From the NCBI RefSeq assembly GCF_019753045.1, contig NZ_JAIELN010000022.1, positions 1 to 64,000 on the forward strand: DNA of 64,000 nt, given 5' to 3'. Below the pieces are notes generated by a model. The model did not search any database, was not told the origin of the DNA, and worked only from the letters and a program-made list of their open reading frames with translations. This DNA comes from Hyphomicrobium sp. (GTDB lineage Bacteria > Pseudomonadota > Alphaproteobacteria > Rhizobiales > Hyphomicrobiaceae). A program made the position numbers and the translations under genes. Of this stretch, positions 13,260 to 30,061 are shown one piece after another (position 1 is the first letter of the stretch; each line of letters opens with the position of its first letter).

Positions 13260-14324
13260 TTAAACTAGGTTCAAAACCATCTGCCGCTCTTCAAGTTGTC
13301 TCAAAGAGGCTTCGATAACTGCGAGCTGCTTCATGATTTCGGAAAATGGCGGCGGAGTGCCAAACATCATGCCCTTCATTGCCTGATAGTCTACTTCCAG
13401 CATCTTTTTGACGGCCTCTGTTGGCACGATTGCAATCGTGTCAGGCTTGGCAAGGTCATAGCGTGCAGCGCCTCCTGGGAAGGTCATCGCAGAATGCGAT
13501 ACGACGTGGGCAAAAAGCTCTGCATCTTTGACAGCTTTTTTGCCGTGTTTGGTCGGTGCTATGCGTGCCACATCATAGAAATGACGAGAATAGCGGTTGG
13601 CGTCCATTGGCCTTTTTGATCCATCTTCGTGCGCGCACTTGCTATTGAAGGCGTGTATTGCGACCAATTTTTCAAGCATCGTGCGTTCAGGCTTAATCAT
13701 CGTAATATTATTGATTCTGAAGTCGAATTTTTGTTTTCCCGTTAATGCGTCCTGGACATATGGAACCACCGACTGTTCTACAATTGGCACCAGTGCGCCA
13801 CGCGCCCCGCCTTCAATTTTTATTTTCGGTTTCGCATAATCGTCGGCGTCACAGGCTGTCTCGTATGCGACCAACACCGCGCCTTCTGCTTCTTCGTAGG
13901 TTACTGTGCAATTCGGCAAAGCCTTGGTGAGCTTTTCGAGCAGCTTCCCTCGCATATGATCAGTGCTCTTGGTTTTCACTTCTTCGAGCTGCTTTTTGCG
14001 CTGTGTAGCGGACATCTTCCTATTCGGATCCGTCGGGTCGCTATCACCAGAAATTGCCAATCCGGCCCGTGAAAAGACAATGTCGATATCTTCAGAAAAT
14101 CTATCTATTAGCCCGAATCCCTTAGATAGTGAGGTCCCACCCTTGAAATAGCATTTGGGCTGATACGGAGGCTCTTTCATCAGGATGTCGAGAACGCGAC
14201 AGACCCAAAAATCCTTCTCGACATAAGCCGAGCGCAGTCCGCGTTTTTCAGCGACGATTTCGAAAATATCGCGACGGTCCCGTCGCGATATTTTTTCAAA
14301 CCGCGAGTACTCTTGAGCTTTCAT
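13260..14324 (-). CDS. AbiEii/AbiGii-type nucleotidyltransferase toxin
   Basis: This 354-residue protein carries the nucleotidyltransferase signature of AbiEii toxins: KGGTSLSKGFGLIDRFSEDIDI, with GGTSLSK at 62-68 and the metal-binding EDID at 78-81. In this family the toxin is a nucleotidyltransferase that acts on cellular RNA or nucleotides and causes abortive infection or stasis when unrestrained. The start codon overlaps the stop codon of the upstream AbiEi-like gene by four bases (ATGA). The coding sequence is visibly poorer in G+C than its neighbours, which suggests recent acquisition. Confidence 0.9.
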   Translation of the reverse strand: MKAQEYSRFEKISRRDRRDIFEIVAEKRGLRSAYVEKDFWVCRVLDILMKEPPYQPKCYFKGGTSLSKGFGLIDRFSEDIDIVFSRAGLAISGDSDPTDPNRKMSATQRKKQLEEVKTKSTDHMRGKLLEKLTKALPNCTVTYEEAEGAVLVAYETACDADDYAKPKIKIEGGARGALVPIVEQSVVPYVQDALTGKQKFDFRINNITMIKPERTMLEKLVAIHAFNSKCAHEDGSKRPMDANRYSRHFYDVARIAPTKHGKKAVKDAELFAHVVSHSAMTFPGGAARYDLAKPDTIAIVPTEAVKKMLEVDYQAMKGMMFGTPPPFSEIMKQLAVIEASLRQLEERQMVLNLV

Positions 14325-14908
14325 GTCACCGCAAGTGTCAGAACCCTAATGGGTTCACGCAATCTATTAGGAACCCGCTTGCTTTTTAGAGCACGCGCAA
14401 TATTGGGCGTCATAGAATTGCGTAACTTCTCCACTGCGTCGTCGTCAAGATCGTCGCCAAGCCAATTAAGCGCCTGCACAATAGGCATTGCCGCCGTTCT
14501 CCGGAAATCCAACAGCCAAGCAGGTGCGCGCTTCAGCTCGATCGTGCGATTTCCTATCTCTCGCACACGACTTTGACCCGCCGTCAAATATGCCGGCCGC
14601 ACTGACACCGCGGTCGTGACACCGAGCGCGTTCGCGGCAGCGAGATCGTCCTTCGCGACTGCGCCCAAGGCAGCGGCCACCGCATCTGCCGATGCGGGAA
14701 CCGCAGTATCGAGAAGCTTGCTGTGCCGAGGGTAATCGTAAAGTCCCCGTGCAATCCGTCGCAATTTTCCTGCCTTCTCAAGCCGCGACAATGCTTGCCA
14801 CACTGCTCCTTCAGAACCGAGATCGCGAAAATGCGCGGCTGTATACACTCGCGCACCACGACCGTGCCGCGCGACTCTATTCATAATTTTCAAAGCAATA
14901 CCAGTCAT
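14321..14908 (-). CDS. AbiEi-like antitoxin / DUF6088 transcriptional regulator
   Basis: This 195-residue protein has an N-terminal winged helix-turn-helix (about 20-65; FRDLGSEGAVWQALSRLEKAGKLRRIARGLYDYP) followed by an all-helical/beta C-terminal domain typical of AbiEi and DUF6088 antitoxins. Type IV antitoxins of this family counter the toxin without binding it tightly and repress their own operon. It precedes and overlaps the AbiEii gene by four bases. ATG 14908 has GGATAAAG upstream. Which of the two related antitoxin families fits best is uncertain. Confidence 0.85.
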   Translation of the reverse strand: MTGIALKIMNRVARHGRGARVYTAAHFRDLGSEGAVWQALSRLEKAGKLRRIARGLYDYPRHSKLLDTAVPASADAVAAALGAVAKDDLAAANALGVTTAVSVRPAYLTAGQSRVREIGNRTIELKRAPAWLLDFRRTAAMPIVQALNWLGDDLDDDAVEKLRNSMTPNIARALKSKRVPNRLREPIRVLTLAVT

Positions 14909-21316: not shown

Positions 21317-22627
21317 ATGAACATTCACGACAAAGCTTCCAAGGGCGGGACCAAGCCGAACGCGACATTGACCGTCGACAACAAGCAGGTCCAGCTTTCG
21401 GTGCGCTCTGGCACGATTGGCCCTGACGTCGTCGACGTCGGCAATCTCTACAAAGACACCGGCTGCTTTACGTACGATCCCGGCTTCACATCCACCGCGA
21501 ACTGCAAAAGCTCGATCACCTACATCGACGGCGACAAGGGCGAGCTGCTCTATCGCGGCTATCCGATCGATCAGCTCGCGGAAAATACCAACTTCCTGGC
21601 GGTCTGCTATCTGCTGCTCTACGGGGAACTGCCGACCAACGCCGAGTTCATCAATTTCCGCAAGACCATTACGAACCATACGATGGTTCACGAGCAGATG
21701 ACGCGGTTCTTCACCGGCTACCGGCGTGACGCGCATCCGATGGCGGTCATGGTCGGAACGGTCGGTGCGCTGTCATCGTTCTATCACGACTCGACCGACA
21801 TCAACGATCCGGCGCAGCGCGAAGTCGCGAGCCAGCGCATGATCGCGAAGATGCCGACGATGGCGGCAATGGCCTACAAATATTCGATGGGCCAGCCCTT
21901 CATCTATCCGCGCAACGATCTCGACTACACATCCAATTTCCTGCAGATGTGCTTCGCCGTTCCGTGCGAGCCCTACATCGTCAATCCGATCATCTCGCGG
22001 GCGCTGGATCGCATCTTCATCCTGCACGCCGATCACGAGCAGAACGCCTCCACCTCGACGGTGCGTCTGGCGGGCTCGTCGGGAGCCAATCCGTTCGCGT
22101 GCATCTCGGCCGGTATCGCTTGCCTTTGGGGGCCCGCACACGGCGGTGCCAACGAAGCTGCACTGAACATGCTGAAGGAAATAGGCACCGTCGATCGCGT
22201 TCCTGAATTCGTGAAGCGCGCCAAGGACAAGTCGTCCGGCTTCCGGCTGATGGGCTTTGGCCATCGCGTCTACAAGAACTACGATCCGCGCGCCAAGGTG
22301 ATGCAGAAGACCTGCCACGAGGTGCTCGATGCTCTCGGCCACGGAGACGATCCTCTGCTCAAGGTCGCGATGGAGCTCGAGCGCATCGCGCTTCAGGACG
22401 AATATTTCATCGAGAAGAAGCTCTATCCGAACATCGACTTCTATTCGGGCATCACGCTCAGGGCGATGGGCTTCCCGGTCGATATGTTCACTGTGCTGTT
22501 CGCGGTCGCGCGCACGGTCGGATGGATCGCGCAGTGGAAGGAAATGATCGAGGATCCGGAGCAGCGCATCGGGCGCCCGCGCCAGCTCTACATCGGACCG
22601 CCGCGCCGCGATTTCCCGGCCGCTTAA
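21317..22627 (+). CDS. gltA: Type II citrate synthase
   Basis: GltA condenses acetyl-CoA and oxaloacetate to citrate, the entry step of the TCA cycle. The 436-residue protein shows the hexameric type II features: [17 protein letters not shown] near the N-terminus, [26 protein letters not shown] and [15 protein letters not shown] (catalytic His), and the C-terminal [13 protein letters not shown] 21317 has AAGGTGG upstream. Its TAA stop overlaps the stop of the convergent lpxI-lpxB gene by three bases. Confidence 0.97.
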
Positions 22628-25068
22628 TCCGCAACAACCGACAGCACGACTTGGAGCACGACCTGGGCCGCCGCGTCGCTCGGACTCGAGGCGGCGAGGC
22701 GAAGCTTTTCGGGCGCCAGGCTTAGTCCATGGAGTTGCGCAGAGCGTGCGTCCGTGTCGCCAAGAAGCGGCTCGATGGCGTTTGCCAGATTTTCGGCCGT
22801 GCACGCTTCCTGCAGATATTCGGGATAGACGTTCTTGCCGATCACGAGGTTGGCCAGCACTACGCTCGGCACCTTCAACAGGAAGCGCAGGTTCGACATG
22901 ATCGCGTCGACCTTGTAGGCAACGACCGTTGGCGTGCCCGCGAGCGCAAGCTCAAGCGTTACGGTGCCCGATGCCGCGAGGGCAGCGCGTGCGAGGCGCA
23001 TGGCGGCGTATTTATCGTCCGTGTCGACGATGTGCGGTTTCGGCGTCCATGCAGACGTCTTCTCGGCGATGCGATCTCTGAGGTGGCGGACCGCCGGGAT
23101 AACGACCTCGATCGGACCCTTGGCGGATGAGACGCGCGCGACGGCCTCGCCGAACACGTCGATCAGACGCTCGACCTCTGATGTCCGGCTTCCGGGCAGG
23201 ACGAGAAGAACCGGTCGATCCTGTGCAATTCCAAGGCGTGACGCGAGGCTCGTCGCATCGGCATTCTGGATCTCATCGAGCTTCTCGATCAGCGGATGGC
23301 CGACATATGTGCATGCCGGGCCGCCGAGGCGTGCGTGCGCTTCAGGCTCGAACGGGAGCAGCGCCAAAACGTGATCGACGTACGGGCGCATTTTCTTCGC
23401 GCGTCCCGGCCGCCAAGCCCAGACGCTCGGACTGACATAGTCGACGATCGGAATATTCGGCGCACGCTTCCGGATGCGCTTCGCAATCGGGTGCGTAAAT
23501 TCAGGGCTGTCGATGATGACGACGAGGTCAGGCGCGAATGCGACGGCGGCATCGACCGTCTGATAGACGCGGCGCATGATGCGCGGAAGCTTCGGCAATA
23601 TGGACAGCGGGCCCATGACTGCCACGTCTTCGATGGGAAAGAGCGAGCGAAAGCCCTGCTCCGCCATTTCCTCTCCGCCGACGCCCGAGAAGTCGATCGG
23701 ACCTGAATGTTGCTTCTTGAGTGCACCGATCAGCTTGGCGCCCAACGCGTCGCCCGAGTGCTCACCAGCCACGAGGAAGATTTTCAAGGGCTTCGGTCCT
23801 GATCCGAGGTTTGAAGTGGCGACAAACATCGCGGACCTGTTTGCCAACTGAATGACTGGGGAAGATTTTTCAAGATGCGAGCCGTTTCCGGTGATCGCTA
23901 CGCCGATCAGGTGAGCGCTGTGAGCCGCACCGATCAGTGCTTCGTCGAGCCGCTCATCCGATCCGACGACCAGGACGCCACGGCGGCGCGTATTGCTGCC
24001 GCGAAGCGTTCGCACGCGTTCGACGACGGTCGTGGGTGTTTCCGAGGCGCCGACTGCGAGGATGCGTCCGCCGTCGATGACGACGGCCGAACTGAGGCCG
24101 AACGATGAGAGCGCCGATAAAACGCCGCCCGCTCGTGCGATATCGGCTTCGGCTGAGGGATTGACTGGAAGTTCGCCGACGGCGCGGACGCGGTGCTTCT
24201 GAGCTTCCCGTGAGCCAGGCTTGGTTTCCTCGGCCGTGATGCCCTGGACGAATATCCCTCGCTCGTCGGCGAGCGCGATCATCTCAGAACGGTTGGCGGC
24301 GAGGACGTGATCGGCCATGACGGCGATGCCGCAAAGCCCGGCTGCGTCGGCCTGGGCGACCGTGTTCGGTCCGATCGCTGGTAGATCGACGCGAAGATCC
24401 TGACCGGGCTTCGGACGCTTGACGAGAACGCCGTAACGTTCGCGATCGCCTCGGGCCCGACGCGCTTCGGCGACGCGCTTCAGCATCCGATCGGTTCCCT
24501 CGGCGCCTTCAATTGCTTCGATGCGGCCGCGGCTCACGACCACCGCCTGACCGATATCGTATCGGCCGAGTGCGGCGACGAGATCGAAGCCGCGCGCGAT
24601 GTCTTCGGCGTTCTCGGCCGACGCTGAGGCTTTCGTCAGATTGCCGTCGCCGACGAGCAGCTCCGGCGCGACTTCATCGACGCCGACGATGCGGAGGCCG
24701 AGCGCTTCGAATTGGGCCAGAACGCCCCGCAGGACGGCATCATCGCCGCCGGCCTTCAGAAGCTTCACCACTGCCGGCGCGAGACGCAGAAAAGCGAGAT
24801 CGGGACGCGCCGTCGCGAACGATGGCCGCCCGTAGGCGCCAAGCAGCAACGCGTCGCTGATGCCAGCCCGCCGAAACGCTGCCATCGCGCGTCCGGGCTG
24901 AGCCCAGTTGACGACCGTATGTGGAAATGCGCCGAGCGCCGGATCGGCGGCGCCCTCAACCATGACGACGTGAACCTCGCCGCCGCGGCGCGTAACACTT
25001 TGGGCGACTTCGAGAGGAAGCGAGCCGGCGCCAGCGATGATCCCGATGCGGTTCATCGGACCGTCCAT
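22624..25068 (-). CDS. lpxB: LpxI-LpxB fusion: UDP-2,3-diacylglucosamine pyrophosphatase plus lipid-A-disaccharide synthase
   Basis: One uninterrupted frame of 814 codons joins two consecutive lipid A enzymes. Residues about 5-280 are LpxI (DUF1009): [15 protein letters not shown] opens the N-domain and a full C-domain follows. Residues about 425-814 are LpxB, with [50 protein letters not shown] and [11 protein letters not shown]. Between them, residues about 308-420 resemble a second, degenerate LpxI C-domain: [22 protein letters not shown] mirrors [22 protein letters not shown]. LpxI releases UMP to give lipid X; LpxB couples lipid X to another UDP-diacylglucosamine. ATG 25068 follows the lpxA stop by eight bases; ATG 25056 is an alternative. 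Both enzymes are normally separate proteins. Confidence 0.93.
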
Positions 25069-25076
25069 GGGCGGTT

Positions 25077-25883
25077 TCAGCTCTCTTCGCCGTTCTTCGG
25101 CGTGCACAGTGATCGCTTGCCGCCCTGGCGGATGAACGCGAGGATTTCCTGCACGGAGGCATGGCCCGCGAACTCTTCCGCGACGTCTTCCATGCGCTCG
25201 ACCAGCGTGCCTTCAGCGGCGAACAGCAGCCGGTAGGCGCGGCGGAGATCGTGAATATCGTTGCGGGAGAAACCGCGCCGCTGCAGGCCGACGATGTTGA
25301 GGCCAGAAAGATATGCGCGATTGCCGATCGCCATGCCGTACGGAATGAGATCGTTCTCGAGGCCCGACATGCCGCCGACGAAGGCGTGGTGGCCGACGCG
25401 AGCGTACTGAATAACCGCAGCGCCGCCGCCGATGATCGCGAAATCGCCGACGTTGCAATGGCCCGCAAGCATGACGTTATTGGAAAAGATTACCCCATTG
25501 CCGACGTGGCAATCGTGGCCGACGTGGCTGTTTGCCAGGAAGGCGCAGCCGTTGCCGACGCTCGTCACCGAGCCGCCGCCAGCGGTGCCCGGGTTCATCG
25601 TTACGCCTTCGCGAATGATGCAGTCGGACCCGACGGTCAGCGAGCAGGGCTCGCCCTTGTATTTCAGATCCTGCGGCTGATGGCCGATCGACGCGAACGG
25701 AAAAATGCGTGTGCCGGCGCCGATCTCCGTCGTTCCGGCGACGACGACATGGCTCACGAGTTCGACGCGCTCGCCGAGCGTTACCTCGCGGCCGACGACA
25801 CAGAAGGGCCCAACCTTCACCCCCGCGGCTAGCTTTGCCCCGTCTTCGACGACAGCCGTCGGATGGACTTCCACTTCAGCCAT
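25077..25883 (-). CDS. lpxA: UDP-N-acetylglucosamine acyltransferase
   Basis: LpxA transfers a hydroxyacyl chain from ACP to the 3-position of UDP-GlcNAc, the first step of lipid A synthesis. The 268-residue protein is a left-handed beta-helix of hexapeptide repeats from residue 5 to about 180, with the catalytic-His region [15 protein letters not shown] and the typical [13 protein letters not shown] at the start of the helical C-terminus. ATG 25883 overlaps the fabZ stop by eight bases; the longer frame to 26120 is antiphase within fabZ. Confidence 0.97.
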
Positions 25884-26379
25884 TTTGGCTCGCAAATGCG
25901 CGCGCATCGGCGGTGTCTGCCAGCATGGCGCTGATTTCGGCCTCGGCCACGGTTTTGCCGTTGACCTTCGCTTCGCACTTGAAGCGCCAGACGCGGCCAC
26001 GATTGCGGATCTTGCGCACGTGGTAGTGGAGCTGGTCGCCCGGCAGCACGGGCTTCCTAAACTTGGCGTTGTCGATGCCCATGAAATAGACGAGCTCGGC
26101 CTTGTAGTCGTGGCCGACATTCGAAACGCAGAGAGCGCCTGCCGTCTGCGCGAGGCCCTCGATGATGAGCACGCCCGGCATTACGGGAAACTGCGGGAAG
26201 TGGCCTTGAAAGAACGGCTCGTTGATCGTGACGTTCTTGACGCCGACGCAGCTCTCGTCGGCATCCATGTCGTACATCCTATCGACCAGGAGGAACGGAT
26301 AGCGATGCGGCAGGAGCTTCATCACCCGGTTGATATCCGCGGTGCCCAGGGTTTTGACCGCCGTTGCCTTGCCTTCCAT
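25876..26379 (-). CDS. fabZ: 3-hydroxyacyl-ACP dehydratase
   Basis: FabZ dehydrates 3-hydroxyacyl-ACP during fatty-acid elongation and competes with LpxA/LpxD for the same acyl-ACP pool. The 167-residue hot-dog-fold protein has [13 protein letters not shown], the catalytic His in [13 protein letters not shown] and the catalytic Glu in [12 protein letters not shown] 26379 has GGAG ten bases upstream. It overlaps lpxA and follows lpxD by 49 bp. Confidence 0.97.
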
Positions 26380-26428
26380 CGTCGTGTGCTCCAAAAAATT
26401 ATGCTCGATCGATCGAGCCTGCCGGGCG

Positions 26429-27490
26429 TCAGCCTTCTTCAGGCTCCGGCGTCCCGTCCTCATAGCTGCCTTTATCGCGCGCGACGAGCCGCTTGATCAT
26501 GGCCTGTTCACGGGCGGATTCGCGCAGTGGCTTTGCCGGAGTGCCGAAATAACGGGCGCCCGGCGGCACGTCGTGCGTCGGGTGCGAGGCCCCGCCGACT
26601 TGTGCACCGCTTCCGATCTTGATGTGGCCCACTGTTCCAGACTGGCCGCCCATGACGACAAAGTCGCCAAGTTCGGTCGAGCCCGAGATGCCGCACATTG
26701 AGACGATCACGCAATGGCGACCGATGATCACGTTGTGCCCGATCTGGACCAGATTATCAATTTTCGTGCCCTCGCCGATGATCGTATCCTTAAGGGCACC
26801 CCTGTCTATGGTTGTATTTGCGCCAATTTCCACGTCGTCCTGGACGATCACCCGGCCGATCTGCGGCACTTTCAGGTGACCTGTGCGCCCCATGGCGAAG
26901 CCGAAGCCATCCTGGCCGATGCGGACGCCGGAATGGATGATGACCCGGTCGCCGACGAGCGCATGTGTCACGGTCGCCAGCGGGCCGATGAAGCAATCGC
27001 GACCGATTGTGACGCGCGCCCCGACCACCGCACCAGCCGCGATTCGCGTTCCCGCCCCGACCTGAGCCTCAGGCCCGATAATGGCGCCAGGCTCGATCAT
27101 TACACCTGCTTCGAGGACTGCCGTCGGATCGATCGGCGGCGCGCCGGCTGTCGCCACCATCGGCTGCATGGCAGCCGGATAGAACAGCGCTAGGGCGCGG
27201 GCAAAGCCATGGTAGGGCTGCTTGGTAATGAGCGCCGTCGTTCCGGCCGGAACGCGGTCCATGATTGCCGGAATGACGAGACAGGCACCGGCCTTCGTCG
27301 CGGCGAGCTGGGACAGATACTTCTTGTTGTCGATGAAGGAAATATGGCTCGGGCCTGCTTCGGAAAGCGGGCGCACATCATCGATCTTGACCGCCGGGTC
27401 TCTGCCGTTCGCGATTTCCGCGCCCGCAGCCGCCGCGACTTCCGAGAGTGCATACGGCCCGGCACGTTCAAAGAATCCGGGATGCTCCAT
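26429..27490 (-). CDS. lpxD: UDP-3-O-(3-hydroxyacyl)glucosamine N-acyltransferase
   Basis: LpxD adds the second hydroxyacyl chain to the glucosamine nitrogen in lipid A synthesis. The 353-residue protein has an N-terminal uridine-binding domain (about 15-110; [21 protein letters not shown]), then left-handed beta-helix repeats (about 115-310) including the [14 protein letters not shown] and [11 protein letters not shown] segments, and a short C-terminal helix. ATG 27490 has a strong GGAGG-CGG site upstream; the frame beyond it to 27592 is not conserved. It starts a leftward unit after a terminator. Confidence 0.97.
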
Positions 27491-27614
27491 AACGCCGCCT
27501 CCGGTCCGCTTCTGTTTCAGATCTGTCGATGTTGGAAGCGTTGAATGAACGACGCGAGGGATGTTGGCAAGACCCTGACGAAAATAGCCCATTCAACTAG
27601 GTGATAACTCAATG

Positions 27615-27679: not shown

Positions 27680-30061
27680 TTAGAACTTCGTCTGAGCGCC
27701 GAAGCGGAAGAACTGCGTTTCGTCGTAAGCCTGCTTCGTCAGGACCTTCGCGAAGTCCATACGCAGCGGGCCGACAGGCGAGTTCCACATCAAGCTGCCG
27801 CCGACCGACGAACGGACGGAGTCGCTGTCAGCAAGATCGCCTGTGCCTGCCAGCGCCTTCCTGGCACCGCCCGTCGCGTCCCACAGCGAGCCAGCGTCGG
27901 CGAAGACCGCGGCGCTGATGCCGAGATCGTCCGGAACGTATGGGATCGGGAAGCGGATTTCGGCGGTCGCGGCCCAATACTTCTGGCCGCCCAGCGCGTC
28001 TTTGTTTTGGGAACCCAAGTCGCGCGGACCATAGCCTGAGCGGTCGAAGCCGCGGACCGTTTCGCCGCCCTTGAAGAAGGCGTCGAGCAATCGGACGTCC
28101 TCGCCGCCCCAGCCCTGGATCATACCGCCGATGGCGCGGCCGACGAAGGTGATCTTGTCGGCGATCGGGTAGTAGAAGCGGCCTTCCGCATTGACGCGCC
28201 AGTACTGAGCGTCACCGCCGAGGCCAGCGAAGTCGTTGGCGACCTCAATGTAATAGCCGCGGTTCGGGTTCGCCGCATTGTTGCGCTTGTCGTAGCTGAT
28301 CGTGGTGCCGACCAGCGACGTCCAGTAGCCGGAGTCTCTGCAATTTACTTGGTTCGGATCAGTGCTCGTGTCTCCGCAAGCTTCCTTGATTGCACGCGAA
28401 GCATCGTCTTGGACGTTGAAGATTTGGTCACGCGAAATCGAGTACGCCGTCTGCATCCAGAGGCTTTCGGCGATCGGGAAGCCAAGACGGACCTGACCGC
28501 CCATCTTCTTCTGTTGGAAGCCGGACTGCTGGATGTAATTAAGCTGCTTGTAGAAGAGATCGAAGCCTGCGGACAGGTTGCGATCCAGGAAGCGCGGCTC
28601 GGTGAACGAGAAATCCGCCTGCATACGCTCGAATGAACCTGCGAGTTTCAGTCGAACGAACTGGCCGTTGCCGAACAGGTTGCGCTCGGTGATCGACACG
28701 TCGCCGATCACGCCTTCACTCGTCGAATAGCCGGCGCCGAACGAGAGTTCGCCTGTCGACTGCTCTTCAACAACCACATCGAGAACGACGCGATCGGGTG
28801 CCGATCCGGGACGCCGCTTGACGTCGACGTTCTTGAACAGGCCGAGCGACTGCAATCGCTTCTTCGCGCGGTCGACCATGAGGCTGTTGAAGGCATCGCC
28901 TTCAGCCAAACGGAATTCGCGGCGGATGACGAAGTCTTTGGTGCGTGAGTTGCCGATGATGTTGATGCGCTCGATGTAAACTCGCGGGCCTTCGTCCACA
29001 ACGTAGGTGATCGCGATCGTGCGGCTCGCGGCATCCGGGATCGGACGCGGACGAACACGCGCAAAGGCATAGCCCTTATCCGCGATGTTGAGCGTCAGCC
29101 GCTCGGACGTCTTGTCGATCTGAGAGGCGTCATAGACGGCGCCAGCTTGCGTCAGCAGGTCGCTCGAAAGACCGTTGCCGTCAATGCCGGGCAAAGAGCT
29201 TTCGACATTGATTGCGCCGAAAGTATAGGGCTGGCCTTCGTCGATCGCGAACGTGATGAGGAAGCCCGAACCATCGGGATCGATTTCAGCATTCGCAGCC
29301 GTGACGGTCGCGTCGGGATAGCCGTTCTTGAGATAGTACTGACGAACGAGCTCGCGATCGAGATTCATGCGGTCAGGATCGTAGACCGCCGTGCCCTTCA
29401 GGAAGTCGAACCAGCCGGCCTGCGTCGTCGAGATGACGTCGCGCAGCTGGCTATCGGAGAACGCGTGGTTGCCCACGAAGTTGATGCCCTTGACCTTGGT
29501 CGCGTTGCCTTCGTCGATTTCGAAGACGAGGTTCACGCGGTCTTGCTCGAGCTGAATGATTTTCGGCTCGACGCTGGCAGCGAAGCGGCCCTGCCTGCGG
29601 TAGACGTCCAGAATGCGCTGCACGTCGCCCTGCGCCTTGGCGCGGGTGAAGACGGAGCGCGGCTTCAGCTGGACTTCACCAGTCAAGGTCTTGGTGTCGA
29701 CCTCGCTGTTACCTTCGAAGGCAACCTGGTTGATGACCGGATTTTCCTTGACCGTGATGACGACGGTCGAGCCCTTGTAGTCCATCGAGACGTCGGCGAA
29801 GAGGCCCGTCCCAAACAGAGCCTTGATCGACGCATCGATCTTGGAGGCACTGTATGCGTCACCCGCACTGAACTGCAGGTACGAGCGCACCGTTTCAGGT
29901 TCGACACGCCGGTTACCGACGACTTCGATGTTCTTGATCACGCTTTGGGCCGACGCAGCACCTGAAATCCAGGCGGCGTCACCCATGGCGACCACCGGCG
30001 AGAGGACTACAAGCGCCAACGCAAGGCGCAGTCCCGCCAAGATGATCTTAAATTTCTGCAT
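27680..30061 (-). CDS. bamA: Outer-membrane protein assembly factor BamA
   Basis: BamA inserts beta-barrel proteins into the outer membrane. The 793-residue protein has a cleavable signal peptide (1 to about 39, ASA-QSV), five POTRA repeats (about 40-430; the first opens VIKNIEVVGNRRVEPETVRSYL) and a C-terminal barrel (about 440-793). The barrel contains the conserved VRGFDRSGYGPRD loop motif and ends in Phe, the usual outer-membrane targeting signal. It lies between rseP and lpxD, the standard alphaproteobacterial order. The leader upstream has two inverted repeats. Confidence 0.97.
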   Translation of the reverse strand: MQKFKIILAGLRLALALVVLSPVVAMGDAAWISGAASAQSVIKNIEVVGNRRVEPETVRSYLQFSAGDAYSASKIDASIKALFGTGLFADVSMDYKGSTVVITVKENPVINQVAFEGNSEVDTKTLTGEVQLKPRSVFTRAKAQGDVQRILDVYRRQGRFAASVEPKIIQLEQDRVNLVFEIDEGNATKVKGINFVGNHAFSDSQLRDVISTTQAGWFDFLKGTAVYDPDRMNLDRELVRQYYLKNGYPDATVTAANAEIDPDGSGFLITFAIDEGQPYTFGAINVESSLPGIDGNGLSSDLLTQAGAVYDASQIDKTSERLTLNIADKGYAFARVRPRPIPDAASRTIAITYVVDEGPRVYIERINIIGNSRTKDFVIRREFRLAEGDAFNSLMVDRAKKRLQSLGLFKNVDVKRRPGSAPDRVVLDVVVEEQSTGELSFGAGYSTSEGVIGDVSITERNLFGNGQFVRLKLAGSFERMQADFSFTEPRFLDRNLSAGFDLFYKQLNYIQQSGFQQKKMGGQVRLGFPIAESLWMQTAYSISRDQIFNVQDDASRAIKEACGDTSTDPNQVNCRDSGYWTSLVGTTISYDKRNNAANPNRGYYIEVANDFAGLGGDAQYWRVNAEGRFYYPIADKITFVGRAIGGMIQGWGGEDVRLLDAFFKGGETVRGFDRSGYGPRDLGSQNKDALGGQKYWAATAEIRFPIPYVPDDLGISAAVFADAGSLWDATGGARKALAGTGDLADSDSVRSSVGGSLMWNSPVGPLRMDFAKVLTKQAYDETQFFRFGAQTKF

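Follow-up and report, generated by a model that had tools for sequence, protein, structure and literature searches.

Background

It is established biochemistry that lipid X, the product of LpxI, is a substrate of LpxB. The LpxI of Caulobacter crescentus (PDB 4ggm, 4j6e) is a stand-alone chain of 283 residues with two domains, and the LpxB of Escherichia coli (PDB 5w8n, 5w8s, 5w8x) likewise stands alone. LpxI is described as a two-domain dimer with mobile domains, contacting its substrate through Q169, T187, D188, K214, D225 and T233 (PMC6286764). LpxB is described as an intertwined, C-terminally swapped dimer whose surface is basic close to the dimer interface, and its active-site residues are E15, S17, D98, R201, T277 and E281 (PMC5785501).

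In Alphaproteobacteria, lpxI and lpxB form a neighbouring pair placed after lpxA, each gene in its own frame, with the stop of one close to the start of the other. The locus reported here has the same order and the same place after lpxA (compare PMC3087551), but a single frame. The closest described fusion is that of lpxC and fabZ in Bacteroidetes, Chlorobi and Verrucomicrobia, which also joins neighbouring genes of the lipid A cluster (PMC3087551). Other genes are involved there, whereas in the present fusion the first enzyme produces the acceptor substrate of the second. FabZ is a fatty-acid enzyme and does not catalyse the step after LpxC. Searches of openly licensed papers for LpxI together with LpxB and fusion returned no account of the present one (weak evidence of absence, given that source), nor did these papers give a match for DUF1009 with LpxB or for Hyphomicrobium with lipid-A-disaccharide synthase.

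The window analysed here is a stretch of 64,000 nucleotides (positions 1 to 64,000 of contig NZ_JAIELN010000022.1). Its host is a Hyphomicrobium; the nearest named record, Hyphomicrobium facile DSM 1565, is 94% identical and also carries the fused gene.

Results

One frame from LpxI to LpxB

An earlier note on this DNA had reported a complete LpxI running into a complete LpxB within one frame of 814 codons, naming no strand. The architecture is confirmed: translation of the minus strand from 25068 to 22624 gives 814 codons without a stop, and the comparison with the LpxI_N, LpxI_C and LpxB profiles that the note had proposed yields strong Pfam matches to all three, in that order. The mass, put there at ~87 kDa, is calculated at 85.7 kDa for the 814-residue product, which stops about 8 residues short of the H. 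facile product (822 aa). Candidate starts are ATG 25068, ATG 25056 and GTG 25107 (the last giving 827 aa), and the choice between them leaves the fusion finding unaffected. The parts of the gene are as follows.

22624..25068, minus strand: lpxI-lpxB fused gene, 814 aa, start ATG 25068, stop 22626-22624
24658..25050, minus strand: LpxI N-terminal domain, residues 7-137 (PF17930, E 1e-30, profile positions 1-129 of 129)
24247..24648, minus strand: LpxI C-terminal (catalytic) domain, residues 141-274 (PF06230, E 1.3e-48, profile positions 2-130 of 131)
23821..24165, minus strand: third domain, a duplicate of the LpxI C-domain without catalytic residues, residues 302-416 (PF06230, 25.9 bits)
23782..23820, minus strand: short linker, residues 417-429, with a possible internal TTG start
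22669..23781, minus strand: LpxB, residues 430-800 (PF02684, E 9.3e-89, 298 bits)

The LpxI part is homologous to the Caulobacter enzyme over residues 5-281 (E 8.2e-51). All substrate-contact residues are present in its C-domain (Q174, T192, D193, K217, D228 and T236); the first five are kept in 95/95 aligned LpxI C-domains and T236 in 94/95. The NCBIfam equivalog model for LpxI (NF047836) is covered at positions 1-273 of 275 and scores 216.4 bits, far below a cut-off of 400 that is a curated naming threshold and no functional feature. By this score the LpxI part is divergent, yet its alignment with the solved Caulobacter LpxI runs over the whole length; from that enzyme the window protein differs by an extra, apparently dead C-domain and by the joined LpxB.

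The LpxB part scores 237.9 bits with TIGR00215 (cut-off 190.25) and is homologous to the E. coli enzyme over residues 426-806 (E 2.3e-48), here as the C-terminal portion of a longer chain. The active-site residues are retained: E436, S438, D520, R628, T702 and E706 are kept in 10/10 complete fused proteins, and N740, also counted among the active-site residues, is present in the window protein.

A search of the host genome with the fused protein matches this gene alone, and two further LpxI_C matches lie far under the cut-off. A single lpxI/lpxB locus was thus found, and LpxK is present.

Gene neighbourhood

The genes upstream follow the order bamA, lpxD, fabZ, lpxA and then the fused gene, with the lpxA stop eight bases ahead of ATG 25068.

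27680..30061, minus strand: bamA (Omp85 and POTRA domains)
26429..27592, minus strand: lpxD (PF04613)
25876..26463, minus strand: fabZ (PF07977)
25077..26120, minus strand: lpxA, an open frame assigned by Hexapep and Acetyltransf_11 matches and by its position in the cluster; the true start is probably internal

On the other side, a citrate synthase gene is convergent with the fused gene, and a shared TTAA at 22624-22627 holds both TAA stops. Elsewhere in the window (13260-14908, minus strand) a gene for an AbiEii-family nucleotidyl transferase (PF08843, E 1.8e-35) is preceded by one for a DUF6088 protein (E 3.2e-19); the two look like a type IV toxin-antitoxin pair.

An older, degenerate copy of the LpxI C-domain

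The block between the two enzymes had been described in the earlier note as a degenerate LpxI C-domain, and this description holds. A scan of the block by itself gives an LpxI_C match with E 1.9e-5, whose 25 bits fall right at the Pfam family cut-off, and in the search of the host genome residues 302-416 reach 25.9 bits. Profile-to-profile comparison of 87 third domains from the family with 95 LpxI C-domains gives a probability of 99.7% (E 8.9e-27), against 0.3% for the control comparison with the LpxI N-domain. The third-domain model moreover detects the LpxI C-domain in 20/20 loci from outside the family, so that the relation is independent of the family's own proteins.

When the LpxI contact residues were sought in residues 302-416, the catalytic set proved to be absent. 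Across the merged alignment, K214 is kept in 0/87 third domains, Q169 in 4/87, T187 in 2/87, D188 in 3/87 and T233 in 2/87. At the position of D225 there is a gap in 68/87 (D in 3/87; deleted in the window protein), and the surrounding R-x-D-[LMV]-P motif occurs in 0/87 third domains against 95/95 active ones. The block is therefore a second copy of the LpxI C-domain, predicted to be catalytically dead.

The claim that this spare domain came with the fusion does not stand. It was found in 90/93 readable lpxI loci of the family (a partly circular count, the model itself deriving from 87 of these loci), and 78 of those 90 are unfused; the exceptions are L099, L112 and L114. Lengths agree with this count, separate lpxI genes of the family encoding 400-492 residues against 271-302 in the 20 outside loci. 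None of these 20 loci, which were chosen for long open frames, has a second C-domain, and their LpxI ends 2-35 residues past the C-domain. Given the 78 unfused loci, the third domain preceded the fusion and did not originate as its spacer.

Values of dN/dS are 0.27-0.30 for the third domain and 0.06-0.20 for the LpxI and LpxB domains; the former evolves faster than the active domains yet is constrained by purifying selection. A relaxation after the fusion was considered and rejected: there is no clear difference between three fused pairs (0.19-0.39) and seven unfused groups (0.12-0.47).

Distribution of the fusion

A match was obtained in 22/22 Hyphomicrobium genomes searched. Listing the architecture genome by genome, as the earlier note had advised, shows it fused in 11/22 and as two genes in 10, while in the last (G004) the pieces lie on different contigs. 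Two of the fused cases are single-contig assemblies (G003 and G007), and in one (G012) the N-terminus is cut off by the contig end.

At the family level 103 genomes were searched, 100 had a match, and 93 readable lpxI loci (one per genome) were examined. Outside the genus our script flagged four of these as fused. One, L103 from genome G041, has a clean fused frame that keeps a GGAGG-ATG lpxB start within it; the genome belongs to another genus of the family and is a fragmented draft of 410 contigs, and this unconfirmed case reflects either an error of assembly or a fusion that occurred independently for a second time. The others were rejected. The fused look of L112 (G106) comes from a frameshift in lpxI ahead of the third domain, and that domain reads intact in a different frame. 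In L099 and L114 lpxB overlaps in a different frame; the frame of L099 breaks in the C-domain, and L114 (G114) shows no third domain, its lpxI extending into an out-of-frame lpxB.

Wider searches for LpxI took in 297 genomes of the order, some family members included (242 matched), 289 of the class (242) and 150 of the phylum (101). Among the matches listed, which for the phylum sample are all of them, no lpxI frame exceeds 600 codons except in the window's own genome, the next-longest having 598 (order), 457 (class) and 488 codons (phylum). A two-part match in a Kiritimatiellales MAG (L034) proved to be separate genes, and three genomes with long open frames in full-length searches (G025, G055 and G046) have stops between the genes.

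Origin

Maximum-likelihood analysis of 35 LpxB sequences groups the 11 fused copies from Hyphomicrobium in a single clade (support 97/97, present in 98% of 200 bootstrap trees), within which no split copy was sampled. The tree as a whole, in which 14/32 inner branches are well supported, requires two changes between fused and unfused, the second being G041. As LpxB belongs to the locus itself and so is no independent marker, the tree has to be read with that in mind; it indicates a single fusion event within Hyphomicrobium, placed in the common ancestor of the clade.

The starting point can be judged from the unfused genomes of the genus, where in 9/10 the lpxB start lies anywhere from 7 bases upstream to 8 bases downstream of the point at which the lpxI stop ends. 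These spacings depend on our choice of start codon, and in the tenth genome, L021, the junction contains Ns. Four of the nine have an ATGA junction. Across the family, lpxI and lpxB are in different frames in 71/77 separate loci, so that stop loss would not usually be enough to join them without an insertion or deletion.

The junction and internal starts

The position of the ancestral lpxB start is without ATG or GTG in 8/11 aligned fused genes. In the remaining ones (L007, L008 and L011, the third sub-lineage) the old ATG survives as an in-frame internal methionine, preceded in L008 by GGAGG at 11 bases. The linker itself has a dN/dS of ~0.7 over 10-20 codons.

The earlier note had pointed to M414 as a possible internal start. 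Located at the third domain's end, this ATG has only a 3-base Shine-Dalgarno (SD) match and looks weak. A better candidate, absent from the earlier note, is the TTG at residue 428 (23787-23785), with AGGA 9 nt upstream; from here LpxB would begin just before KIFLVAGE. We defined a strict internal start as an in-frame ATG, GTG or TTG with four SD-core bases 4-10 bases upstream. An SD-like TTG is found at the junction in 7/10 complete fused genes, against 0-11% of 36-codon windows in the same genes, and no start passing the strict definition was found in L003, L007 and L008. The seven fall in two of the three sub-lineages; resting on two lineages, the excess is suggestive only.

Discussion

Overall, we consider it probable that the gene encodes one bifunctional protein that makes and then uses lipid X, derived from a single fusion and with a dead LpxI C-domain as spacer. 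Its LpxI part would cleave UDP-2,3-diacylglucosamine to lipid X and UMP, and its LpxB part would form the lipid A disaccharide from this lipid X and another molecule of UDP-2,3-diacylglucosamine. Adjacent lpxI and lpxB genes would have been brought into one stop-free frame in the ancestor of one Hyphomicrobium clade, and the older duplicate would now act as a folded spacer. Since both enzymes are described as homodimers, the product should be a 2:2 particle or a larger oligomer, which would bring two sites of each enzyme together. Points that count against this reading are the SD-like TTG codons and the retained ATG at the junction, the dN/dS of the linker and the low score of the LpxI part with the NCBIfam equivalog model. 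The sequence itself and its frame, the homologies, the pattern of retained and lost residues, the single origin and the purifying selection are observations; from them we infer translation as a single chain, both activities and an oligomeric state. A direct hand-over of lipid X from LpxI to LpxB is speculative, and the fixed ratio of the two activities that the earlier note proposed alongside it is conjectural.

A missing stop or frameshift introduced by sequencing or assembly did create the apparent fusion in G106, but for the window gene such an artefact has a negligible chance: the open junction is common to 11 genomes of the genus, two of them single-contig, which form a clade. Sequencing error is thereby refuted for the Hyphomicrobium clade and is a possibility for the singleton G041. 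Far harder to dismiss is a neutral accident, in which the halves work independently on one chain with neither channelling nor gain. The single origin and the hardly constrained linker agree with it, and in unfused relatives the genes overlap or sit a few bases apart, so that a small change suffices; the absence of any split copy among the 11, in spite of how easily the linker could acquire a stop, speaks against it. We give this reading slightly less than an even chance, and it does not exclude the bifunctional protein, for which we claim a chain but no gain.

Also compatible with the bifunctional protein is a gene with two products, the fusion and a free LpxB made from an internal start, much like the ancestral operon. 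TTG 428 would serve in the window's lineage, and a TTG or the old ATG in the other sub-lineages. The frequency of SD-like TTG codons at the junction and the ATG retained in three loci favour such an arrangement, but the candidate start varies between sub-lineages, three genes lack a strict one, and counted by lineage the excess amounts to two cases. TTG is moreover a weak start codon, and we regard a second product as rather unlikely. More doubtful still is a fusion that channels substrate from the lipid X synthase to the disaccharide synthase while the dead domain, through allostery or assembly, sets LpxI against LpxB activity. We are about equally sceptical of a regulatory third domain that has kept the ability to sense UDP-diacylglucosamine or lipid X: its presence in nearly all family loci and its purifying selection, fused or unfused, would fit, but the contact residues needed are mostly gone.

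The bifunctional protein that we favour is no new kind of system; it joins, in one lineage, two enzymes that act in succession in a known pathway, by way of an older dead duplicate. Its value to lipid A biochemists lies elsewhere. Direct hand-over of membrane-active lipid A intermediates is hard to test with separate enzymes, and fused and unfused orthologues within one genus allow a direct comparison, a natural test of intermediate passing. Within this core pathway, the dead copy of LpxI's catalytic domain, which selection maintains throughout the family, is another small puzzle.
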